This document shows positions 23,741-41,100 of a stretch of DNA of 64,000 bases, piece by piece. Source of the DNA: Candidatus Peregrinibacteria bacterium. Its GTDB lineage: Bacteria > Patescibacteriota > Gracilibacteria > UBA1369 > LOWO2-01-FULL-3. The DNA lies in the NCBI GenBank assembly GCA_026395515.1, contig JAPLYN010000001.1, forward strand, positions 124,001 to 188,000, in the 5' to 3' direction. Within the stretch, counting starts at the first letter, position 1; each line of letters opens with the position of its first letter. Position numbers and translations under genes: made by a program. The notes under the pieces are model-generated. The model saw only the letters and a program-made list of their open reading frames with translations, was not told the origin of the DNA and made no database searches.

Positions 23741-24102
23741 GTAGATTTAATAAAGTTTAATATAATTTAGTCACATTGAGTTTAGTTTAATTTTTATTAA
23801 TGGTGGTGAATAGCTGCCTCTCGATGGTTGATGAAGTTTAATAAAATACGATAAAGTTTAATTAAGTTTATTAAAATATAAAACATTTAGATCAAACGTC
23901 TATACTTTAGCCTAAAGTTTAATTAAATATAATCAACTTGCCAAAACTCTTGCAAAGTTGCGTAAGTTGTGGTAAGTTTGGCGCACGAAAAAAGTTCGAC
24001 ACAAAGTTCATTGAAAACAAGAAGAATATTGAAAACTGCCCTGAAAAGTGCTAAAATTTAAATAGCTTTAATAAAGTTTAATAAAGTTGCTTAAGTTTTA
24101 AT
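23741..24102 (+). repeat. Array of same-orientation AAGTTTAAT direct repeats with ~10-bp phasing
   Basis: Within 360 bp AAGTT occurs 13 times on the plus strand (first bases at 23753, 23834, 23854, 23864, 23915, 23955, 23964, 23974, 23992, 24004, 24074, 24084, 24093) and about once in the other direction. The core AGTTTAAT is exact six times. Neighbouring copies are often 9-10 bp apart, one helical turn (unit TAATAAAGTT, twice in tandem at 24071-24090). A 15-bp palindrome (23904-23918) overlaps one copy. It sits directly upstream of a BldC/Xis-like winged-helix gene. Proteins of that fold can bind direct repeats head to tail, so this is probably a nucleoprotein-filament site (autoregulation, segregation or replication). 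Confidence 0.75.
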
Positions 24103-24106
24103 CCAC

Positions 24107-24124
24107 TCCGGCCGCTAGGCCGGA
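24107..24124 (+). promoter_or_regulatory. GC-rich hairpin just before the BldC-like start codon
   Basis: TCCGGCC/GGCCGGA with a GCTA loop makes a perfect 7-bp stem, 16 nt before the ATG. No T run follows on either strand, so it is not a terminator. It is the most GC-rich spot in an AT-rich region and may control translation or mark a transcript end. Confidence 0.5.
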
Positions 24125-24140
24125 AAAATCAAAAATTCCT

Positions 24141-24464
24141 ATGATTGAGAAATTTCTGACCACAGAGCAAGTTGCAAATATTCTTCAGGTCCATCCCTTT
24201 ACCATCTTGAAATTTCTCAAGGCAGGTAAGCTCCGGGGTGTGAAGCTTGGTAGGGTATATCGCATCAAAGAAAGTGATGTTCAAGCATTCCTTGAGTCTC
24301 GTATGACAAGGAGCGCTAGACTCAATGAGATGGCAGAAATGATCCAACCAGAGACACAACCGGAATTACAAGCTGTTGAAGATGAAATTTCAAAAGATCA
24401 AAATCTCTATACTCTGAGGAAAGATGATAACGGTGAGGATGGATTGCCTCACTACATCATCTAA
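24141..24464 (+). CDS. BldC/excisionase-type winged helix-turn-helix protein
   Basis: A 107-residue DNA-binding protein. Residues 5-52 form a MerR/Xis-type winged helix: LTTEQVANILQVHPFTILKF (first helices and turn), AGKLRGVKLGRVYRI (wing) and ESDVQAFL. The order matches the excisionase-family domain and Streptomyces BldC. The remaining 55 residues are acidic and Gln/Glu-rich without known domain. BldC and phage lambda Xis bind direct repeats as head-to-tail filaments, which fits the repeat array immediately upstream. A 56-residue zinc ribbon gene follows by 12 bp, probably co-transcribed. No integrase is nearby, so a role in excision is not supported. Confidence 0.88.
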   Translation: MIEKFLTTEQVANILQVHPFTILKFLKAGKLRGVKLGRVYRIKESDVQAFLESRMTRSARLNEMAEMIQPETQPELQAVEDEISKDQNLYTLRKDDNGEDGLPHYII

Positions 24465-24476
24465 TAAATTTAAATA

Positions 24477-24647
24477 ATGATTATTCACTGCCTCTCCTGT
24501 GGAAAATCAATCTCGAGTCACGGTCACTGTTGCCCATATTGCACGTCTGAATTGAGCGACCTTACCTATGAATTCAACGGGATTGAAGAGAAGGCCAACC
24601 TCAAAGAGCGAATGAGGAATATGGTCTTCGGATTAGTACACAAATAA
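24477..24647 (+). CDS. Small zinc-ribbon protein (56 aa)
   Basis: The reading frame begins MIIHCLSCGKSISSHGHCCP, then YC, so two CxxC knuckles (Cys5/Cys8 and Cys19/Cys22, with an extra Cys18 and several His) form a rubredoxin-like zinc ribbon. A charged tail follows (GIEEKANLKERMRNMVFG). It starts 12 bp after the BldC-like stop and ends TAA, with a terminator downstream. Small zinc ribbons of this type often assist DNA- or RNA-binding partners, but no function can be assigned. Its tight link to the winged-helix gene suggests one module. Confidence 0.7.
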   Translation: MIIHCLSCGKSISSHGHCCPYCTSELSDLTYEFNGIEEKANLKERMRNMVFGLVHK

Positions 24648-24859: not shown

Positions 24860-26020
24860 TTACTCTTTGCACTGTCTATCTTTGATCTTCGTCGTAAGGC
24901 TAAGAACTTGGTTTAGAGGCGAGAAAGTAGTTTCGATGATTTCCAGTGTGCCATCATCTGCTCCGCCTGTCTGGCGACCATCCAGTGCATTAATAAACTG
25001 TTCCATACCTCCATCAGCCGCTGATTTATATTTAGAATCAAAATCTGCTCTAACTTGAGAAATATCTTTTTCCATAATGTACTGTTCTTGAGCACTCGTA
25101 GTGATATTTGCGTATTGGCTTTGAGTTAAACCGCTACCATTAGTAATATGAGTATCAAGATAGTTTTTTGCTTCATCTAGAGCATTTGTGGCAGTAGTGC
25201 CATTTACGGTAACTTGCCCAAATGATTTTACATATTCAAATACGCTTTCATCTGTGGTGAACAACTCCACGAATTTTATAGTCTTCATTTCATTCCATAA
25301 AGAAGGACCTTTTCCGTTTCCATCAGCGCCAATAGCTTTGCCAGCATCTTTCAATCCCGCTGCATCATCTTTAAAGAATTTAACCAATTCATTCCACTTT
25401 TTGCCAACCTCTTCCCATGGGCTCTTTGTACATTCTAGATATTGAGATTTTCTATCAGAGTATTTGCTTTCAAGTTTCAAAAATAATAGATCAAATTCAG
25501 CCTGTGTCATGAAACTTTCACTAACATATTTAGCCATCATATCATTATATATTTGATCCCTTGGAACCACTGCTGCATCTCTAAATACTGATGTATGTGC
25601 CGGTACCGGTAGTCTTCCCAATAATCCAGTATCAACAATATGTCTCGCATAATAAATTTCCACCATAATTTTTTGGTAGGCTTTCTTTAATTGAGGTACT
25701 GCCTGATTATTACAAGTTAAGAAGGCATCTCTTATTGAAGATCTTATTTTATCTTCCTGTTTTATTAAAGTGTAAACATCATTACTTTGGCACTGATTTC
25801 TACTTAAAATATCATTCCAAGGTTCTACAATTCCCTCCTTAAAACTATCAGCTGAAATAAGCGTTTTAAGAAAAGCTAGGAAGTCTATATTTCCTTTCTG
25901 AATACAGCGAGCAACACTTAAATTACCATTGCTGTCCTGCGTCGCTGGATCGGCATACGCAACACTGTTGTTTATTAACAACATTAAGCCAATACTAATT
26001 ATGATTTTATACTTTTTCAT
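24860..26020 (-). CDS. Exported hypothetical protein (386 aa), last gene of the giant-protein operon
   Basis: Not recognised. A signal peptide spans about 1-24 (ending VAYADP). The mature part is helical, with at least five Cys (about residues 39, 77, 103, 197 and 384), suited to disulphides outside the cell. It ends DRQCKE. It lies directly after the 604-residue gene (start 26020, upstream stop at 26021) and is the fifth of five consecutive minus-strand genes with almost no gaps, so it is very likely co-expressed with the giant surface protein. Confidence 0.75.
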   Translation of the reverse strand: MKKYKIIISIGLMLLINNSVAYADPATQDSNGNLSVARCIQKGNIDFLAFLKTLISADSFKEGIVEPWNDILSRNQCQSNDVYTLIKQEDKIRSSIRDAFLTCNNQAVPQLKKAYQKIMVEIYYARHIVDTGLLGRLPVPAHTSVFRDAAVVPRDQIYNDMMAKYVSESFMTQAEFDLLFLKLESKYSDRKSQYLECTKSPWEEVGKKWNELVKFFKDDAAGLKDAGKAIGADGNGKGPSLWNEMKTIKFVELFTTDESVFEYVKSFGQVTVNGTTATNALDEAKNYLDTHITNGSGLTQSQYANITTSAQEQYIMEKDISQVRADFDSKYKSAADGGMEQFINALDGRQTGGADDGTLEIIETTFSPLNQVLSLTTKIKDRQCKE

Positions 26021-27835
26021 TTAATTTGTATCAGGTTTAGTGACTGTTTTCTCTAGAGCATCTGTTGTCATTTTTTTGAATGTATCTTTGAAATTTTTAA
26101 ATAAGGAATTCATTTGATTTATTTCTTTTAGAACATTTATTGAGTAAACCATCGAATTGCTGATTTCATTCGAAACATCAGTACTTTGTAGATTTGAATT
26201 TGCTTCAGCTGCAGCTTGAGCTTTGATTCTCCTAATAGCATCACCTCTTTCAGATTGTGTTTGATTTTGGCTACCAATTTCTTCTTGTAAGGCGTTGTTG
26301 AATTTATCAGTCAAATCAGGTCTGTTTGGACTATCAAAACTTAGTTTATCCACTAATCCTGGTTCATAGGTTTTAATATATTTATTCCACTCTTCCAGAA
26401 TATTTCTGCCAAAAATTAATTTATCATTTGATGGTGTAGGAATTGGATTCCAAATTACTATGAACTGTAAATTAATGCGTGGCACCGACGTAGATTGCTT
26501 ACATTTAGCAGATTCCATAAGGTTACCTGTAGCCTTATTCGGAACGAAGGAATGACTCAATGTCTTAGCCATATATTCATTAATTTTTTGTATTTCACAT
26601 AGGACGCAGCTCTGTCCTTGCATGTAGCTAGAAAGAACTTTTTTTATAATTTTAACATCAAAGCACACACTAGCTTTTGCATTCACCAGATTGGTTGAAT
26701 AGTTAGAATCAGATGTGTCGCCAGTAATATAATTATTCTGTGCACCACCTAGAGTACCAAATCCTGAAGAACCAATCCCTGCAAATAATTTAGAATCATT
26801 TACCCCAGCACACCATTGTTTGGTCCAATCGTCAGCTGGTGCTGGCTGCACTCCAACTTTGGAATTTTTGGCAGCATTTGGATCTTGTTCACCATTACCT
26901 TTTTTATTGTTATCTCCTGCCACATCTCCAGCGCCACCATTATTTTGAGCGTCTAGATTGTTCCCAGTTCCATCTACAACATTGTTTTTATCATCACTGC
27001 TATATGTATTTAAAGCATTAGCCAAGCCATTATCTGTGTCACACACATCTTTAGGTAAAACTTCTGGCTGAATTTTTTTATCGTCACCAAGTTTAATTTC
27101 ATTTTTATTTAATGGGCCACCACCTGCGGCTCCCTGATCTATGCCAGCAGTTAATGGCAAGCTAGCCACTCCAAATTCATTAGCAATATATGCATTTTGC
27201 TTAGTCTTCGATTCAATAGCTGGATCCAAAGGTGAAGTATAGGCATCTTGATAAACACCACCCACAGTCACCGGAGTTTTTTTCAAGAATAGAACATCTT
27301 CAATCAGAGAGAGGTCGTAAACCAAATCAAAACCAGAATCACTTAAGTCACCATTAGCAAACATTTCTGTAGGGGTTACCTGTGTTTCTATTTCTTTTTG
27401 TACTTGGAATAGTTCAGCTAAGTCTGCAAAATTATTTTGAATTTTAGCAATTACTTTGGCAGCATCTGCCTGAGTCATTTGAGAGTGTTTTGAACTATTG
27501 AAAACAGTCGCCAAAGTTCCATTTATTGCAGCTCTTGCCTGTTCTGGAGTCATTCCGTAATTCTTTGCAACTTCCTTTAAGGCATCTTTGTTTGAATCCC
27601 TGGTAACCTTTTTATAAATTAAATTATATAAATTTTTACCTTTCTTTGAAGGATCGGTTGGAGCAAAAACTGTACGCCAATCAAATAGATCATTATCTGA
27701 TGTTCCTATAAAACTATTCCACCAACCTACGTTGTCATCTCCGTAAGCCACTTGTTCATTGTGTGAGTAAATTAAACCAGCGGATATACCCACTCCAATG
27801 ATTAAACCTATAATGATCGGCAGAAACTTTTTCAT
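26021..27835 (-). CDS. Membrane-anchored exported hypothetical protein (604 aa)
   Basis: Not recognised. ATG 27835 ([20 protein letters not shown]) is chosen over a start 27 nt upstream because it leaves a 1-nt gap to the preceding stop, like the other genes of this operon. The N-terminal hydrophobic segment (4-24) is a signal or anchor. The body includes helical stretches, a Gly/Asn/Asp-rich low-complexity middle (about 285-330), a cysteine group (CVLCEI, KCKQ) around 410-450, and a helical C-terminus. It ends TKPDTN. It is probably a partner of the giant SLH protein. Confidence 0.75.
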
Positions 27836-27836
27836 T

Positions 27837-28535
27837 TTATTGGCATTGACTGGTGCTTGCATCTACAAAGCGCACTGGGAATTCAGCTACGCGTAAACGA
27901 ACATCTTTAAGAATTAATTTATATTTTGTTAGCCTATTCAATATTTCTTCATACTTTTTATGCATTGGATAAGCCATACGGAATTCGTTATAAGCTGCCA
28001 CCGTAGCTTCCAAAACATCCTTTGCTGCCTGTGATTCTTTGTCTATGCTATCAGCCTTTCTATACTGGCTTCTTAATAAATCCGCAGCAATTGCTCCACC
28101 TCCAAGCGCACCACTTAATGGTTTAAAATCAATCGTCTTTTTCAAGTCTTGAAGCTTAGTTAAATATTCTGAATATATTTGCATTCCACCAATTCCTACG
28201 CAGTAACTGCTGAAATTATCATCTCCACAAGCTTTTAATATTTCAGCCGTAGTAGCATTGGCTGCTAGTCCAGATGGAGGTAAAAATTTCTTCTTTTTTT
28301 CTGCATCTTGGTAATAGCCATCACTATCAATTAGAGCCAACATCTTCTCTATTTTTGCATTAAAATATGTATTCATTTCTCCATGATATCCATCAAAGGC
28401 ATCATAGAAATTAGCTGTGACTCTGAAATTTATTTTTTTGTCACCAGCAGCAAAAATTGTATAGCCACCATAGACAGAAACAACAGTCATTATGGCTATA
28501 AAAAATGTTATCAAAATTTGTTTTAAAAACTTCAT
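27837..28535 (-). CDS. Exported hypothetical protein (232 aa)
   Basis: Not recognised. An N-terminal hydrophobic segment (residues 4-30, ending TIFAAGD) acts as a signal or membrane anchor. The mature part is helical with two Cys close together (near residues 102 and 111, [10 protein letters not shown]) and one at the C-terminal end (SQCQ). It is packed 1 bp after the 193-residue gene and 1 bp before the 604-residue gene in the giant-protein operon. Confidence 0.72.
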
Positions 28536-28536
28536 T

Positions 28537-29118
28537 TTAACCTGAGGTTAGACATTTTCCTATAAAGCTAGGAAGCATTTTATCGAAAGATACAAAGTAT
28601 CCATACATCTGAGAAATAGCAGTATTTAGATCCCTTAGTTTACTATTAATGGCTTGGTATTTTTCTATAAGAATAGTTGTTGTTTTTACAGATGATGTCT
28701 TCTTTATATGATCTATCATCATTTTTTTTGCTTTGGAGAAATATTCATTTTTAATGTTTGCACAGAGCGCATAGGCAGTTTGAGTAGCCAAAATATTTTG
28801 ATCAGCACTATTTACTTGAACCTTCAAAAAAATGTTATTTAAATTTTCTTTGAAGTCTTGGTAGCGAGCAATCGCAATATTAGTCAAAGAACCAGTACTG
28901 CTTTTATTTTGGAAATTAGTATCCAGAAATTCCAGAAATTGCTTCAGTTCTATATCATATATTGGAGCTAAGGCACTTTGGCATTCACTCATTTTTGCTG
29001 AGTCTAAAATCTTGATTAATGCAGCTTTGTTTTTATCATCTTCAGCAGATGCAAAAGCCGTCATTGCCTGTAGCAACAACACGCTCACCATCCCAATTAT
29101 TAATAAAATCCTTTTCAT
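28537..29118 (-). CDS. Exported hypothetical protein (193 aa)
   Basis: Not recognised. A signal peptide spans 1-24 (ending AFASA). The mature part is a helical bundle with Cys near residues 42, 118 and 190. It starts 1 bp after the stop of the 4862-residue gene. The four small exported proteins downstream of the giant protein share this plan: signal or anchor, helical body, few Cys. They may form its export or assembly apparatus. This is inference from position and layout. Confidence 0.72.
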   Translation of the reverse strand: MKRILLIIGMVSVLLLQAMTAFASAEDDKNKAALIKILDSAKMSECQSALAPIYDIELKQFLEFLDTNFQNKSSTGSLTNIAIARYQDFKENLNNIFLKVQVNSADQNILATQTAYALCANIKNEYFSKAKKMMIDHIKKTSSVKTTTILIEKYQAINSKLRDLNTAISQMYGYFVSFDKMLPSFIGKCLTSG

Positions 29119-29119
29119 T

Positions 29120-32100
29120 TTATTTATTTATTGATTGTATTTGGACTTCGTTACCTTTTGTGAAGATATAGGTTTTATCGTTTGGTTTGCTGTCATAATA
29201 CTGCGAATAATACGTGCCAACAACAGAGAAGAAAATATCTCCAGGAATTAACTCTGCTTTATGTAAGAATGTAGAAATACATGGACAAGTATTACATTCT
29301 GCAGGGACAATGTAGAGACCTGGTACGCTTTGATTTTTGCATGCCGAAGGGTTCTTATCATCAGTAGGATCCAAAGGATTGCCGCAATCAGCCACTTCTT
29401 TACCGTCTGATTTGCCACCACCATCAGTATCCGGATTATGAGGATCTGTATGATAAATATTTACCTCATCATAATTTGATAAACCATCATTATCATCATC
29501 TATCGCATCATCGGTAGGATCCAGAGGATTCGTATGAGCAGCTATTTCCTTTCCGTCTGTCACACCGCCACCATCAGTATCCGGATCTAGAGGATTCAGA
29601 TTATCTGCACATTCTAGAGCACTATTTAATCCATCTTTATCAGGGTCAGCACTTGGATCGGTGACGTGATATTTCTCTTCGCAGTAATCTGTTAATCCAT
29701 TGTTATTACTATCAACCTCAAAACAATTATATGTATCTAGTACTCGCTGAACCATTATTAGTAATTCTCCAAATGTCATGAGCTTGTAAGGATCTTTTGC
29801 TTCCTCTGGAGTTACTATGAAATTATTTTGAAGTGGTTTTCCACCTTTCAAATAAGGCGTCAAATCTTGTGCAGCTTTCATATAATCACCAAACCAAGGA
29901 TCACCTTCCTTGAGACCACTAACATCAACAATATTTCTGTACTGCAAAGCTTTCAAAATAATTTTTACCGCCTCAGCTCTGCTAATATTATTTTCTGATT
30001 TGAATGGGAATAATCCCTGCGAATCTGGTTCACCTTTGTAACCATCTACGAATCCAAGCAAAGTAGCTTCTTTAATATATGGATGATAATCTGCGAGAAT
30101 ATTATTATCCGCATATCCAGTGCCAGCTTTGAATGGTTCATGTGATTCAGGTCTAGGAATTACACAAATCATTGCCAAGAGTACTTTAACGAAATCCTTT
30201 CTCTTCACTAAATCTTGTTGAGTAAACTTGAATCCAGGATCGAAAACTAAATTGGCAATATTAGGCTTACTTGATAGAGCCTGAGATCCATTTAATACAC
30301 CTTCAGAAGGTTTTCTTGGACTCATGAATGGCACATCATTTGGACCAAGCACAACAGCCGGATCTACAAGTGATATATACACTTCTCCAATTACTTTTCC
30401 TTCAAAATTTATCTGAATAATTAGAGGTTCCTTTGTGTGATCATTTGGCTTCTGAGTAAGAGTAATACGTTTATCCAAAACTACAATATTTCCAGTACTA
30501 TCAATAGAAACCATGATTTTATTTTCCACTGTATTCTTTAGGACTACTCCACCTGGATTGTCAGCATCATTCGCTGGCAAATTTTCAAAAACAAAGTTGT
30601 CAGCCTTATCTAAATCATCAACATTAGTTCCATGTATGAACTCAATATTAGCAGAGTTAAAGTTGTAATTTTGATAAATATTCACATCTGAATTTGCGTT
30701 TCCAATTATATAAACTGTACCTAATACTTGATTATTTTTATCTAGAATAGTCACACTTGTAGGAGTGTTTGGAGGAATAGCCTCATTCACAATTGTCTTA
30801 TATCCTGGTTCTATTTTTCCAAGATCACCAGTCTTTGGATTGATCTCAGCCACAATTTTACCGTCAGCATTTTCAACCAAAATCATATCTTCCAAATTAA
30901 AATCAGAAATATTGTAAGCACCATCATCCCCAGTAGTTGATTCACGTACCTTATCTATTCTTGGAACCAAAGTGAGTTTTCCTTTAATTATCCTCTGAAT
31001 ATAACGGCTACGCATTAACCAGAATGGTAATTGAGCAGTTACAGGAAGAGTTTTTCCTGTAGCCACAGCTGTAGTAGCAAATGATTGATCTAGGCTTACA
31101 TTTGGTGCCACAACATGTACCACAAATTGTAAGCTTGCGTCCTTACCAGAGGCATCCACCACATGAAGTAGGAATTTATGATCTCCCACGTCACCTTCAT
31201 TAGAGAATGGACCAATATTAAATTTAGGATTAGTTCTATCGTCAAAAGTAAGTCCATTGCCATCTTCGTCCACCATCGCAGTTAAATCACTCCAAATAGT
31301 TTTTTGTATTGGAGTAGTTTTTAATTTTTCTTTAGTAATTGGATCAGTCTTATCTGTCTCAAATGGAATAGTCTCTAAATAGTATTGTTTTATCTCTCCA
31401 TCAGGATCAAAAGATCCACTTGAATCAATTTCTAAATTCTTAAATATCGACAAAGTATAATCAGTAGAATTTAGCACAGGCATTGGAGCATCACTGTCTG
31501 CACATGATTGAGGAGCGGCAATTATTACATCGGATTCTAATGATTTATTTCCGGTAGCATTTACGGCAAATACACTCACGTAATAGTTTCCATTTGGAAT
31601 TTTTTCTGAAATTCTTGGAGAAGTCTTATCACTTAAATCAGTTACATTTATCTTGAAAGTGTAAGCGGCATCTTTGAAGTCATCATAAATTGATTTTCTC
31701 AAAACTACTTCATATGAAACTGCATCCTCCGTAGGTTGCCAAGAAATATCAATTTTGCCTGTACCAATATATGGAACTTGAACTCCCTTCACACCATCAC
31801 CACCAGCGTTAACATAATCACTTACTGCATTTTTAGTGAAGCCTACGATCAAATCTCCTTTAGGTAAATTTGGAGTATTTTGATAATTAGTTTTCAAATA
31901 AACATCTCCACCCATTGAATAGACGATATCAGTATCTTTATCATGGTCTACATCGCTGAAAACAATGTTTGTACTTCCATTTAATTCTCCAGTGAAATTA
32001 AGAACACTTTCATCTACTCCACCGGCAGACACAAAGAATCCAGCTGGAGGAATTGTCGGTTCATTAGCACCACTTACTGCAGTCTGTGGAGTGAAATCAA

Positions 32101-35100
32101 TTGCTGACGCAATCAAATCTCTCTTTTCTGATAAACCAGCAGTACTAGCAGCTTGATTAAGAGTATCTTCTATATCTTTGCCAAGGAAGCTAAAGGACAA
32201 AGTTTTACCAGAAACATTATCACTAATATTACTTCTACCAACATCACTTACCGTAGGATTAGCAGCGATTAAATCAATATGCTGGTTATTGTTATCAACA
32301 AGTATTTTATTGAATTCATTGTAGTCAGAGATATCACCTAAAACATCGTTCGAAGAGTTTAATGAATCTACAGAAGCAATCATTTGATTTCTAATTTCCG
32401 CTAATTGTTTCAAATTTCCACTATTTGGTAAATCTTCGAATTTTATTCCATCTTTAACATCTGCCAAAGTTCTATTCAAAATTGGATCGGTGGAATCAAT
32501 AAAGTGCTCTGTGGCAATCAAATGATAGACATCAGGAGTTGTATCTTCTTTTTTAACAGTCGCTATATAGTCATCCATTTCCTTCTTGAAACTATCTAGC
32601 TCAGTGGTATCAAAACTTAGAGGTAATGAACTGCTCTTATTCTTAATACTGCTTGTGGTGCTATCTACAGCGCCTTTTACTGTACTTGTTCCTTGATCAA
32701 CTGAGTCTTGAGCTTGTTTTGCAGCTTTATTTATAGCGTCTTGAATGACAGTATTTATTATTTGGCCAAAAGGAATGCTCATAATTCTATTAATACCTTT
32801 TACCAGATTTGACATTCCATCATTCCAAATTTGAGCACCCTTATCAGCAGCTACATAAATCAAATTAGTATCAATATCAAAACTGATTTTTCCAGTGATT
32901 CTAATCTGATCTACATAGCTGTATTGGATAGGAGGGAACTGCATTCCTAGATTCTTTATCAACGGTAAAATTGCATCAACACTAGGTTGGGTCAAAGTAG
33001 CAATTTCCGTACTCAAAGTACTTTCTGGAATTGGAATAAAACCATTTTTCAATAAACAAAGAATTTTGAAAATAGTTTTTAAACTAACCATCAATTTTCC
33101 TACTATATTTGGTAAACCAGGAATCTTTGGAGGTCTTGGTAAATCTGGCAATTGAGGAAGAGGAATCTGTGGTAAGTCTGGTAGAGTAGGTAAAGAAAAT
33201 TTGGAAAGATCCGGTAAATTCACATTGAATCCAGGAATATCTATCGCAAGATCCGGAATTACATCCGGCAGAGTAATATCTGGCAAGTTTGGTAAAATAA
33301 TCGGTTCTGGTCTGAAAACCACATCTGGCCAAACAATCTTGATACCAGTTTTTATCTGAGAAAAATCTACTACTATATCAGGCCATTTTGGCAGTGGTAC
33401 GATAGGAATATCCGGAAGAGCAACGAAAAGCTGCATCAATAATCCAAGTTTTCCAAAGCGATCACTCTTACATTTATCACACGATTGTTGATAATCAATG
33501 CTTAGATCCAAAATCAACTTCCATTGCTTAAATGTCTTAATAACATCTTGAATAGTTTTAATCCAAGACTGAATAATTTTTTGCTGTCTCTTAATATAAC
33601 CTCCAGTGTAATTCATTATCGCGTCTAGATAACAAATTATTTGAGTGGCATACCTTGCTTGAATAGTCTTGAACTGCAAGATATCTTTCGGCAGATTTGT
33701 GAGCTTATCTAATAAATCCATGGTTCTCTTCACCGAAGCCATGAGATTTTGCATGTTTACTACGATCTTATCGCAAATTGTTTTTCGATTTTCATTAGCT
33801 GCACAATTCCAAGCATTATATTTTTGAAGCTCATTCTCCATATGCTTTACCCAGGCATCAGCTTGAATCTTATATTTGGCAATTTCTTTAGGAGAGATAG
33901 CTGGAACTTTAATTACAATTTCTTTTCCTTCTAATTTAACGAAAGGGAAATTGCTAAGACTTGAAGCGAAATCATGGAAGCTTGCAAAGCTAAATTCTTT
34001 TCCAGCGAGCTTGCTTTCTTGAGCAATTTTAGAGAAGTCAGGAAGAATGAAATAGAAGGTAGGGAAGCGCAAAAGTTTACTGTAAATTTCATCAGTTTCA
34101 CCATCCATCCAATTAGTAATAACACTTGGGAATCCAGGGATTTTAATATTTACTTTGGCTCCTCCGGCAAGAGGACTATCGCTACCAAAATTTCCGCCCA
34201 TATTAACTCCTTTAGTGCCACCAGTTCCTTCGCCGTCAGTAATTATTGCCGACTGACCAGTGACAGCTACCGTTGCGCTCTTAGCGAAAGAAACAGCTTT
34301 ATTTACACTAGCCTTGATTGCACTGCACACGCCTGGTATTCCGCCAGGAACCGCAAATGCGAAACATATTCCAGTAGCTGAAGGACCACCACAAACAGCG
34401 GTACCTAAGCCCATTGTCAAAGTAGGAGAAAGGTAAAGTCTGAAACTTGAAGGAGTGTAGCTTGGTAAGAAGAAACCAAAGAATGGTGGATTTGGAGTAC
34501 CTGCTAAGAAAGTAGGGAATCCAGGAGTTCCTTCTCCCATTGCTCCAGGTGTTAATAAAGCAATGTTATAAGGAATTGGTAAGCATCCTGCTCCAGAACA
34601 CCTCATAGCTCCAAGAATATTTCCAATTCCAGTGGCAACAGCCTCACCTGTACCTTCCGCATTTGTTAAAACATTATTCCATTTATCCGCGCAACCATTG
34701 TAATCCTTATCTGTATTTTGAGAATTTGAGAATTTTTGTAGAGCTGCTTTTGTATCAGCAGATAGTTGACCATTGGCATCTTTTAATAACTCTGTAGGAC
34801 TAGGTAAACCAATTTTTTTGAAAGCATCATCTAAAGCATTATTTGAATTATTTGCCGGATTTACATCAAATTTTTCATAAGTTTTAGGACCGGTAGAATA
34901 TAAATATGAAATAATTCCATCAGGGTTTACCTCAGGTCTTATCATTATATCCTGATACGGATCATTAGCGTTTGATGGATATTTCACAAAATTATTTCCT
35001 ATATCAAAATGAACTTTCGGAGTGAAATTCACTGTCATTTGATAGCTTATGATCCTCTTTCCATGGGCAGGGACGCTAACATTTTTGATAACCGACGATC

Positions 35101-38100
35101 TCATGCTTGTACCTGTATCAAGCCATTCTAGCTTATCTGGACAGCCAGCATCTAAACATTTCAGACTGCTCTGAACCAAAGTCATAGACGTTGGAGTAGC
35201 ATCTGAAAGCATTAGATTATTTATTTCACTATCACCATCATTTTGTAGGGCAATTAGATATTCAATAATATCTCCATTTGCCACCGAACCACCATTTAAA
35301 TCTTTTGCCTCTTTAACGGATTTACCCTTAAAATTTCCATCTTCAGCAATGTGTATGAAATCATAATTTTTGTCGTAAGTCTGTTGTGGAACATCTTTTG
35401 TAGAAATGTTGTTACTATCAAGAATAGTACTCTGAAGCTCAGTAGCATCCTGGGCATATTGAGCACTACTAAACGCTGGATCTTTTTCTTGAGCATTTAC
35501 TGCTGGTGGCTGAGTAGTAGGTAAACTGAATTGAATAAATTTATACCAATTTGATTTGCTCACTAGATTACCATTTGCATCTGCAATATCCTTTCCACTA
35601 TCGGGTTTTTCCATTCCCGGATAATTGAGGAAAATATTAGCAATTTCATTCAAATCACTATTTAAAGTGAAGCCAAAATTCTTACTATATCCATAATTTG
35701 TATCAAGTCCCTGACAAGATTTACCATCAGACTTATTGTAGAAAATGCTAATGCTTCCAGATGAATCACTAGTTACCAAATCTTCACAGCCATCATTATT
35801 CATGTCTGCCACCTTCATTTCGTAAACCTTTTTATCTTGAAGTGCTAAATTCAAAGGCTTACGGTCAAAATTGCCATTAGTATTTTTTATCAAACTTACG
35901 CATTGTTCGCCAGCATTACATGGCTGCTTTGTACCAACCACCAAGTCATCGTAGCCATCATTATCTACATCAATTTTCGCAATACTTTCTATTCCTCCAT
36001 AGATGTTCAAAATATATCCTCTATCGCGGAATCTTTTATTGCTTATCTCATTCTCCATTAATCTAATAAGTCCGCTTTCATACACCAATAACAAGTCATC
36101 ATAGCCATCTCCATTGGCATCAAACTCTATCATTTGCTTAATTGGCTCCTGACCACTGAATATAGGTTTTCCAATATCTTTAGAGTATCCAGTGTCTTTA
36201 CTTACCAAATCTCCAGACACCTTTAATTTAATAGTTGGATCACCGTAAATAATTCCTGAATCAGACGCATAAGGCACAAAAGAAGCTCCCACGGAATTTC
36301 CAGCTGCAAATAAGAGCATATGCTTATTTGAACCTTGAAAGCCCAAGCCAAATTCTTTTTTTACTCCATCCAAACTACCATATCCGAAGCCTGGAGCCTG
36401 ATTAGGATCAATATCTTCTTCGTCATCTACTAAATAAATTCCTTGAGGCTCTGCAGTGGAATCGCCAGTATAAGACGTCACAAAAGAATATTTATTTTTT
36501 ATAGAAACTGGTTCTACGTAAACGCCTGGAGTCAAATTTTGAAGTGAGTCACCTATGTTCATCGTCTGCACTCCTTTGCCAAAATTTTGTTTAATAGAAA
36601 TGAGTGCAATATCTGAGCCGCCCTTAGAAAGAATGAAGGCAAAATTGCTAACATCTATCTGTTCATCTTTTGTTGGAACTCGAAGTTTGTAAACTTCATC
36701 ATTGAGATAAATTCTACCGTATTTATCTACTTTCATTTTTGTGTCACTACCAACTTTTACATAAATTCCATCACTATCTTGGCTGAACATACTCTTGTTT
36801 GCCTCGTCTAGAATTTTCACAAAAACACCATCCTTATCTGGGATATTTGTTTTATCATCCACCAATAACACAGGAGAATCGGTCTTTGGTACCACGAATA
36901 CATTGGCCAAATCGTCACCAGCAATATCATCTGAAAGTAATACTTTTTGATAAGGGAAGGAATTGGTCGCATTGATTACTTTTCCATAGACAGTGCTTGT
37001 AAGGAAATCAATTTTTCCATAACCATCAACCGCAAACATACGCTTCTTTTCGCTTTGAGTAGCAGTAACAGCGCTAATGGCCTCTACTTGTCCTTTTGAG
37101 AAAAGAATAGAGTTTGCTAAATTATTTTGATCGCCAACCTGTCCGTAAGCACCTCCAAGCAGCGAAACATATAATGCCCTTGGTGAGAAATTTTTAACTA
37201 TATCACTTGTGACATGCTTATTAATTTTCAACGAAATAATTCCGTCATTAAGGCCAGTACTCTGAGCAAGAAGATTTGCAGTACCAGAAATATTTTTTCC
37301 AGAAATTTGAACAGTCGCCACACCATCTTTTGTGACTGCTTTATTTTGTGAAAAATTTACTAAGTCACTTGTAGCCTTTGAGGCCAAGAAGCTGATCACC
37401 GTGCCATTATCACTATCCACAAAATTACCATTTGTATCCAATACTTTAGCCGTCAAAGTGACCTGTTTATTTGAACTACTATCAATAATGTCTTCAGATC
37501 CACTCAGTAGTATTTGAGTAGCCTTGTTTGATTTAATTTTGAACTTAAATGAGTCACTGGCAAAACCAGGAATATCAATTAAAATTTCTTCCTGACCGGT
37601 TACTGTTCCGACTTTGAATGTTATATTTGCTGCATTCAATTCACCATTCACTAGATTAGATGGAGGCTTAGAAACAAAATTACCAAGATTTATTTTAAGT
37701 ACTGTAAACTTCACAGGTCCATTGAATGCTTTAACAGTCTGACCATTGTTTAGTAATTTTACTCCCAACCTTGCGATTGATTTTCCGTCAGCCGGCAATT
37801 CAGTAATTGCTTGGAAATTCTCATCAAACAATTGCAAAGATAAATCCACTTTATCCAGAACTTGGAAAGACTTAGTCGCACCGACATGTTTTTTGAAATC
37901 TATGCCGCTAATATCATTTCCAGCAGCTAATAATTGATCCTGCAAGTCCTGATCCATTACCACCGCTACCACATCGGCAGAACCAGACTTACCACCCGCA
38001 AACAATTCCGCACTGGCCTTACCATCAAGAGTATCTAGCTGTGTACCAATTAGCTTATTATCACTATCTGATTTAGGATCAAATTTTGCTTTGTCATTCA

Positions 38101-41100
38101 CAAAAACTCCAATTTTTTCAAATGAATTATTGGCAACATTTCCAAATTTATCTTTCAGTACAATATTCAGAACCATCTTGGACTGATTGTTTGCCACCAA
38201 GACGCCGGAGTCAGATTGAATATCCACATTTGCAGGTTCGCCAGCCACTAAATGCAAGTCCTTTGTCACCACTTGGTAACCTGTATCAACTTTTCCATTA
38301 TCCTTTAAAACCTCTTCTTTGATATAAAAATCTCCAGTAACTTTTCCAGCCTTTAGGTATACAGTGGCAATTCCACCCTTACTTTCGACAGTATTGCTAC
38401 CTTTGAAAATAACTAGATCAGAAGATATGGAAAATTTCACTTTATGACTGCCGTTGATCTCTGCATTTCCTTTTGAATCGAAAATAGTTGCCTCGATTTT
38501 CATCAATGAACTATTGTCTGCCACCATAGAATCATTGCTCTCAACAAGGAATTTACTAGATTGGTCCTTGGTTGCAGTTATGAAAGGATTATCGCTTAGA
38601 ACCTCAGCAAACAATCTACGAACACTCGTCTGTGGTCCCTTTGGAATAAATTTCTGATAATACTTTGCTCCAATAAAATATTCTTCCCATTTTTGATTTG
38701 GCTCTGGTTTAATTTCTGGAGCCTTTTGAGTTTCTACTGGCGCTTCAATTTTTTGTGTATCAACGGTCTTTGCAGGAGTTTCTACTGGTTTAGTTTTAAT
38801 ATCTCGAGAAACTGGAGCCGTATCCTGAATTAAAGTAGATTTCAAAATTATGAGATCTTTTTCTTTCTGAGTGCTATCAGTTGTAGAGTCACCAGTAGCA
38901 GTGTTTTTCCCAAGATCAGATGTTCCAGCAGAACCATTTCCAGTTAGGCTTGTGTCAGTTGTTCCAGTGCCTTTATTTGAGCTATCAGTAGTTCCGCTAT
39001 TATTGCCAGAACCATCTGTCTTGTTTGTATTTCCATTAGAATTGGTTCCAGCTTTATTAGGGGATACTCTTGTTGTTTTATTGCCACCATTGGACACTCC
39101 AGCATTTTGGCCAATATTATCTAGAATTTGTTGTAAGCCAGTTGATTGAGTGCCATCAGCGCTCGTACCACCGGAAGAAGTATTTCCAGTATTATAGTCG
39201 CCACCAGAGCTATTATTACCACCAGTATTACTAGTTCCGTTTCCATTTTCTGTGCTGGTCGCAGCGGCATTATTTTGATCTTCAATCTTTTTTAATAAAT
39301 CATCATATCCAGCAATTTCATGATAGACATAACTGGAAAGCTGCACCTGATTGGCATTAGCATCTGGCACATTTTTCTTTTGGCCTTCGGGAATACTTCC
39401 ATCACCAGTTTTTGCAGGACCCACCGGTAATTTATCTTTTGATCCAGGATTCCAGGATTCCGGACTGAAACATTCATTTGTAAATTCAGGGACTGTGGTC
39501 AAAGACTTAATGAATTTTTGCATTTCCTTCAAGAAATCTTGAACCCAAACAAATTCAAATTCGTCACCAGCTTTTCCTACACCACTCTGATCTCCGGCTC
39601 CATCACCTGCTCCTTGTCCACCATTTCCGCCACCATTGCCAGCATTTCCTTGGAACTGAGCCAATGGATCAAACACATTATCTTTTTCTTCCGGCACAGC
39701 CTTATTGAAATTCATATCAAATGAGCTCTTGTTTCCATTCAATACAAGATACGCCGCTTCATAACCAAAAGCCGCTTGAGTGCCCGCAGGAGAAGGTAAA
39801 AGAGTGTGATCAGCGACGTAAGCATTACCTTGATTGTTTGCATCACCATTCAAGTAGTATTGAAGAATATATTGGTGTTTCTCGTCGATATTCATCTTTA
39901 ACCAACTCAAAGCATCATAAATCTTTTTGCTAGAACCTTTTTCCAAATTAAACCCTGAGGCAGGACTATCTATGTCATTATTATTTACTACCGGAGATAG
40001 GTAGTTATTTAAAATTGCATCAGTGATTTCTTTTGGAGTGTATTTATCAGGCGCAGCATTCGGATCAATTATTCTATAACTACCTGGGACTGCAGCGAGC
40101 TCTGTCGCCTTCGTAATAATTGCAGATTGCAATTGAGCCATATTGGTAATATTCGGATCAAAAAGATTCACATATTTAACCTTCTGAATTTGACCAGGAT
40201 AAACTGGAGGATTTGTGTCACCTAAGCTATTAATAATTGCTTGTACATCAAGATTTGGCTTGTTTGGCTGATTTTTGTCGGCTGGATAAGATGGACCCTT
40301 CGAAGGTGCTGTCTGGAAAGCTACATATCTTGGATTATCAATTGGCAGACTGAAAGCCGTTTGAGATTTCATCTGCTGAGAAATTGTATAGTCAGTCGGT
40401 TCGTTGTGAAGAATCAAACTCGGAAGTTTCTTCACGCTATCTGCCTTTACCACCAGAGTCACATCCTTATCTACACCAGCCTTTTTATTTGGGAAGGAAG
40501 AGACGCTATATGGAATTGTATAACTTCCATCATGAGATAATAATTTTCTGGCAATTTCTTGAGTATCCCAGCTTGGAATTGCATATTTCGTATCATCTTC
40601 CTTGAAGTCATAATATTTAGAATCATATATTCCGTCGCCATCGCTGTCTTTCCATTCATAATCTGTTAAACCATTCCCATCATTATCAACTCCATCAAAT
40701 AATCCGTAATTATCTGCGAAATCTTTTAGAGTAATTTTAGGATTACTATTGAGAATAATTTCGCTAGCATCCACTTTATCTCTGCCAGCCCAAATAGATG
40801 TCTTCGGGTTGAAAGTGCTGTTTTCTGCCGTGCCATTATCAGTTTCATAATCATTTTGTCGAGCCTTGGAACTGCTAATAAAAGTTTCAAACTGCTTCAT
40901 CAATTGACCGTAAAAATCAGGCTCGATATTGAAGCTTGAACCATCGCTTGTAGAAGAATCCAAAACAAATTTGTAAGGATTTGAGTCAGTAGAAATGTCC
41001 GTCACGCTTGGTAATCCTGTATAGCAAGAATTGAAATAAACCTGATCCACGTCATCATATTTGTGGTAGTCAGTTTGAAGACCTCCTGGAAATTGATAGC

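Follow-up and report, generated by a model that had tools for sequence, protein, structure and literature searches.

In the TubR-tubC and pSK1 Par systems, direct repeats lie ahead of a small and probably self-controlling winged-helix gene, a layout that the locus described here resembles. It differs from these systems in that no filament-forming NTPase is adjacent, the repeats surround promoters, and the arrangement is chromosomal and found throughout an order. Very few cases of direct-repeat binding by BldC-like proteins are known to us, and to our knowledge hardly any regulator of CPR bacteria has been assigned a site. Streptomyces BldC (6AMA, 6AMK), a small winged helix without a dimerization domain, binds 9-bp direct repeats head to tail, with contacts through Phe21, Val23, Trp31, Leu43, and Gly44, and the G44E mutation abolishes binding (PMC5859096). 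RdfS and Xis form filaments similar to those of BldC, and RdfS is known for both DNA filament formation and promoter control (PMC11963761).

Like BldC, the protein considered here is a small winged helix lacking a dimerization domain, it is preceded by same-strand direct repeats about one DNA turn apart, and the positions of the head-to-tail interface are conserved. The repeat unit is different: it reads AAnTTTAATA and is 10 bp long, and thus departs from the BldC consensus, which reads AATTXXXX(C) and is 9 bp long. Lys and Val stand in place of Arg30, with which BldC reads a C-G pair, and of the minor-groove residue His46. As many as a dozen units, grouped in three clusters, are found at one locus, whereas the BldC regulon comprises many promoters, and, unlike BldC, the present protein has an acidic tail and a zinc-ribbon operon partner. 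Excisionases and RDFs (e.g., Pukovnik Xis, 4J2N, and RdfS, 8DGL) share with it the HTH_17/TIGR01764 domain and a similar fold, but the locus has neither an integrase (none was found among the neighborhood genes compared in families f1 and f8) nor an att site or a mobile element, and the HTH gene is vertically inherited, order-wide, and single-copy, with fixed synteny. Searching the open-access literature, we found no description of this module in CPR bacteria, in agreement with the sequence-only reading that drew attention to the locus.

Repeat Array

Within the 64-kb stretch of DNA analyzed here (the window), positions 23741-24102 contain 13 copies of AAGTT on the + strand and a single one in the opposite orientation (AACTT), a density that no other 362-bp stretch of the window approaches. 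The word AGTTTAAT occurs six times in this region and eight times in the whole 64 kb, and AAAGTTTAAT occurs four times, which are all the copies in the 64 kb. Our recount thus reproduces the coordinates, the strand bias, and the six exact cores given by the sequence-only reading. Successive AAGTT copies are 81, 20, 10, 51, 40, 9, 10, 18, 12, 70, 10, and 9 bp apart; the spacing of 9-10 bp that the same reading had called frequent accounts for 5 of the 12 intervals, but the conserved spacing turned out to be exactly 10 bp (see below). In 2000 dinucleotide shuffles of the array region, AAGTT was found 2.2 times on average (maximum 8), and the corresponding values for AGTTTAAT in dinucleotide shuffles were 0.07 and 1. 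The excess is thus strong for these particular words but weaker if any 5-mer or 8-mer is allowed, with some 8-mer reaching at least six copies in ∼1.4% of the shuffles, and the single-genome statistics alone are therefore only moderate.

It is the comparison with relatives, going beyond the window statistics, that was decisive in establishing that the array is real. The upstream regions of 68 orthologue loci from 14 sampled families were compared, and nearly all of them carry the array in the orientation of the gene; the conservation upstream of orthologues that the sequence-only reading had proposed to look for is thus seen across the order. In these regions, AAGTTTAAT is found 92 times on the forward strand and 3 times on the reverse strand, and TTTAATAAA 125 and 13 times. 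Pairs of TTTAAT on the forward strand are separated by 10 bp in 87 cases, by 20 bp in 53, and by 30 bp in 28, and never by 9 or 11 bp; the counts on the reverse strand at 10, 20, and 30 bp are 5, 8, and 2. The same period emerges from self-comparison, where the best-window identity in the orthologue upstream regions averages 28.2 out of 40 at lag 10; nearly all other lags below 20 give 18-22, with 22.6 for lag 5, and lag 20 gives 26.

The array is also unique in the genomes that carry it. In the complete genome of a relative (G008), an identity of 28 at lag 10 is reached only in the array window among 2218 windows, and a four-unit position-weight score gives 46.7 for the array and 17.2 for the next place, with a maximum of 24.5 in the reversed-sequence control. 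A strict two-unit pattern is present in 19 of 41 genomes, nearly always at the HTH gene and oriented with it, with one match in the control; together with the genome scans, this means that the array marks one locus per genome. We considered whether further copies might provide additional targets, but the remaining matches are single chance ones in genes or AT-rich DNA (G018:C44, G022:C93, and G034), the HTH locus itself split by a contig end (G033), or, in a search of the window's own genome that allowed as many as two mismatches, background only away from the array. Chance AT-richness is ruled out as an explanation by the strand bias, the exact spacing, the genome-wide scans, and the conservation among orthologues. 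A dependence on the 3′ end of uvrA, the gene that often lies upstream, is likewise ruled out, since the array still accompanies the HTH gene in the 27 of 68 loci that showed no uvrA end upstream. The window is one of these, a gene for an S-layer-homology (SLH) protein lying between uvrA and the array. Excisionase-like paralogues in two genomes (G003 and G019) have no array upstream.

Promoters and Leader

The repeats form three clusters around two tandem promoters, all on the + strand. Cluster A (23741-23880) consists of AAnTTTAAT units in 10-bp phase (e.g., 23745-23765, 23784-23791, and 23833-23875); an aligned block of four to five AAANTTTAAT units is kept in 21 loci of family f1, ∼240-180 bp before the −10 box of the downstream promoter, P2, in the f1 alignment. 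Cluster B (23912-23939, CTAAAGTTTAATTAAATATAATCAACTT) is conserved in the alignment and lies directly upstream of the −35 box of promoter P1, its units peaking 140-100 bp before the P2 −10 box. P1 itself (23950-23978) reads TTGCAA, 17 bp, TAAGTT with an extended −10 TGn and is overlapped by the AAGTT units at 23955, 23964, and 23974; in the window it is weak by consensus and absent from the list given by the promoter scan. P2 (24029-24057), which reads TTGAAA, 17 bp, TAAAAT, also with an extended −10 TGn, matches the consensus at 10 of 12 positions with the TG and is conserved in f1. Cluster C (24067-24102, TTTAATAAAGTTTAATAAAGTTGCTTAAGTTTTAAT) covers the expected P2 start site and the leader, its units peaking between 0 and +40 relative to the P2 −10 box, and is the sole perfect two-unit match in the 1.3-Mb genome.

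The f1 alignment shows the same pair of promoters, with the pattern TTGAAA, 17 bp, TGnTAAAnT. Both were called in 22 of 23 f1 loci, mostly 65-80 bp apart (49 bp in G001 and 60 bp in G021), and matches to the extended −10 promoter average 2.09 per 250 bp as compared with 0.20 in shuffled sequences. Between P1 and P2, the word TTTGAAAACAAGGAGAATATTGAAAA is conserved in the window (∼24010-24030) and in relatives, and this interval also contains AAGGAG in relatives and AAGAAG in the window. A leader peptide following the conserved AAGGAG was considered and rejected, the reading frame not being kept in the alignment. A GC-rich inverted repeat at 24108-24123 was likewise rejected as a terminator: it has no T-run, the terminator scan gave none, and it is present only in the window's own genome (G000) and one other (G002). 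An Rfam search returned no match above the gathering score, and on this basis an RNA element was rejected.

Winged-Helix Protein and Gene Neighborhood

The gene behind the array (24141-24464, + strand) encodes a 107-residue BldC/Xis-like winged-helix protein (HTH_17) with a disordered acidic tail ending in PHYII. It matches PF12728 (E = 1.3e-13; 51.4 bits, cut-off 27) and the excisionase-type domain TIGR01764 (51.4 bits, cut-off 28.8) and falls far below the cut-off for the BldC subfamily NF033787 (21.9 bits, cut-off 77). By sequence, the closest PDB entries are BldC (6ama, 6e-6 with alignment, and 6amk), followed by Pukovnik Xis (4j2n). In the AF2 model, pLDDT exceeds 90 for about residues 1-56, which form the winged helix, and the remainder is disordered and acidic. 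The top seven Foldseek matches are all BldC (TM-score by target 0.76-0.86, identity 34-39%), followed by Xis and RdfS, with RacA and pSK1 Par among the weaker ones; the BldC/Xis-like identity proposed from the bare sequence is therefore borne out at both the sequence and the fold level. The residues through which BldC protomers contact each other (Phe21, Val23, Trp31, Leu43, and Gly44) align with L15, V17, F25, L36, and G37. The first four positions are hydrophobic, L15 being present in 47 of 48 orthologues, G37 is invariant in all 48, and the Glu16-Arg22 pair of BldC is replaced by Gln10-Gln16.

The HTH gene is present in a single copy in its own genome (1.30 Mb, six contigs). Of the 89 genomes of the order (Peregrinibacteria/Peribacteria), 73 have an orthologue, as do 57 of the 62 good ones. 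Seven genomes from the two sister families of the class gave no match, and the rest of the phylum gave only weak, generic matches. A phage-borne copy was considered and rejected, two viral HTH matches being distant and both lacking the array; one of them, on viral contig IMGVR_UViG_3300050821_003797 (L221), has an HTH domain that is 55% identical. The f1 orthologues end in a conserved DHYYII tip (PHYII in the window, within 24441-24464) that follows the disordered acidic linker and looks like a docking peptide.

Variation among the orthologues offers a further view of the site. In family f14, proteins with the recognition helix HQYT..W are associated with TGTAA in 29 cases and TTTAA in 13, and those with the helix HPFT with TGTAA in 6 and TTTAA in 31; in family f7, where position 23 is Thr, the array motif is TTAGCTA. 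Pro-Phe at positions 19-20 pairs with T at unit position 5 (∼71%), A and T are about equally frequent at that position in His-Leu proteins, and G is the commonest base in Gln-Tyr/Trp25 proteins. The motif thus appears to change together with recognition-helix residues in two lineages, which, given the very few independent events, is suggestive rather than proof.

Immediately downstream, at 24477-24647 on the + strand, lies the gene for a 56-residue C4 zinc-ribbon protein. A strict pattern places a homologue directly behind the HTH gene in at least 37 of 48 loci, and inspection by eye adds more; these proteins are 55-80 residues long, have invariant C5, C8, C19, Y21, and C22, and match general zinc-ribbon families weakly. 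A sample of 145 genomes of the phylum gave one weak partial match and no clear homologue outside the order, and the zinc ribbon is a lineage-specific operon partner. The surrounding gene order is thrS, recF, prsW, uvrA, HTH, and zinc ribbon, followed by a convergent operon that encodes, besides four secreted proteins, a giant one (4862 residues in the window); this block is the same in two f1 genomes (G004 and G008) and largely so in an f8 genome (G036). The convergent operon occupies 24860-43708 on the − strand; its giant protein has an SLH-like and calcium-repeat-like end, and the operon keeps its place beside the HTH and zinc-ribbon genes in the same three genomes.

Discussion

The reading that best suits the array and the gene behind it is a BldC-like module that spans the lineage, regulates itself, and has a site of exactly 10 bp. 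The promoters lie inside the repeats, there is one such locus per genome, and the array moves with the gene, all of which suggests that the operon is controlled by what it encodes. We consider it probable that the BldC-like protein occupies its own array in head-to-tail fashion and controls the two promoters, probably by repression. The locus would then be the control region of an operon for the winged-helix protein and its zinc-ribbon partner. Each 10-bp unit, AAnTTTAATA, would hold one protein molecule, and because the units lie one helical turn apart and in one orientation, we infer that the protomers bind the array and stack into a head-to-tail filament through the wing-to-helix contact known from BldC, coating the DNA. 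The three clusters would serve as nucleation sites: A far upstream, B against the P1 −35 box, and C on the P2 start and leader. As the protein accumulates, filaments on C would block P2 and obstruct transcripts from P1, whereas those on A, B, and P1 would bend the DNA and turn P1 off or adjust its output, and the outcome would be cooperative feedback on the protein's own level. One continuous filament is not required, given the gaps of tens of base pairs between the clusters. Since cluster C sits on the P2 start, repression seems the likelier net effect, although sequence alone carries no sign that separates repression from activation. Autoregulation is the best fit among the jobs that the sequence-only reading had offered because the clusters surround two conserved promoters of the same gene; the other three, a replication control site, a terminus organizer, and a centromere-like site, found no support, as detailed below. 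The acidic tail, the DHYYII tip, and the zinc ribbon are beyond what simple feedback explains.

An alternative is that the array is a chromosomal landmark, centromere-like or nucleoid-organizing, in which a filament of the protein is read by the segregation or envelope machinery and promoter control is secondary. There is one array per chromosome, RacA and pSK1 Par, which are DNA-anchoring or partition proteins, are among the weaker fold matches, and the DHYYII tip could be a docking peptide; moreover, a search of 12 genomes found no ParB_N in 9, among them the window's own, and a centromere-like role is for this reason kept under consideration. However, the conserved neighborhood holds no ATPase, GTPase, or actin-like partner (no adjacent motor NTPase, the criterion for a par system, was seen among the neighbors in the window, G004, G008, or G036), the array wraps two promoters and travels with the gene, and in the complete genome of G008 it is far from dnaA (390 vs. 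855 kb of 998 kb), and we judge this reading distinctly unlikely. Quite improbable, in our estimate, is the composite form in which, in these ParB-poor bacteria, the array and winged helix together with the docking tail and zinc ribbon constitute one large nucleoprotein focus per chromosome, used for segregation or anchoring, with promoter control built in. It is unlikely, too, that the array is bound by another protein, or by the zinc-ribbon protein, while the HTH protein acts elsewhere. This would suit the facts that we infer binding by the HTH protein and that, with no further such array in G008, that protein would have a regulon of one; against it stand the tight coupling of gene and array, the BldC-like fold, the covariation of motif and helix, and the known direct-repeat habit of the fold (PMC5859096, PMC11963761). 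As for the zinc ribbon, we know of no way in which a 56-residue protein of this kind would read 10-bp direct repeats.

A replication origin, iteron, or terminus control site is highly improbable. Direct repeats followed by a small winged-helix gene do recall iteron layouts, and short repeats near the origin have been reported for Ca. Peribacter riflensis (PMC4736985), but the strand skew does not switch sign across the array in G004, G036, or G008, in the window's own genome it merely fades near the array, no DnaA-box cluster is present at the array, dnaA is distant, and the HTH gene is missing from the seven sister-family genomes. It is also very unlikely that no dedicated protein is involved and that the repeats merely bend DNA as phased A/T tracts or belong to an AU-rich mRNA leader. 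The units are 70-80% A+T and one helical turn apart, and cluster C is within the transcript, but plain A-tract curvature accounts neither for the strong strand asymmetry (92:3) nor for the G or A conserved at position 3 and the TpA steps within the unit; clusters A and B lie upstream of both promoters, and Rfam gave no match.

If the module works as proposed, a protein family and its cognate site would have evolved in step across some sixteen families of an order without cultured members, providing a natural data set on the way in which small winged helices select direct repeats and count them. The exact 10-bp unit can be read straight from genomes, a 107-residue protein and 360 bp of DNA make for a cheap in vitro test, and a conserved zinc-ribbon partner can be named alongside the HTH gene.

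A separate observation concerns strand composition. The reading of genome sequence covered the window's own contig (C1), part of contig C6, and the complete relative G008. Around dnaA in the window's genome (G000:C6:300001-460000; L161-L180), the third-position GC skew is −0.50 on genes of both strands with no sign change, and around the array on C1 it is near zero, a gradient relative to C6 with no switch. In G008 (PGYE01000001, complete, 998,424 bp; L048-L097), every 20-kb bin of the chromosome has a negative GC skew, and genes of either strand show a third-position skew, taken on the + strand, of about −0.6; there is no origin or terminus inflection, as if replication proceeded in one direction. 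A similar skew pattern has been reported for some Microgenomates, in a paper that describes Peregrinibacteria as normal (PMC7143001).
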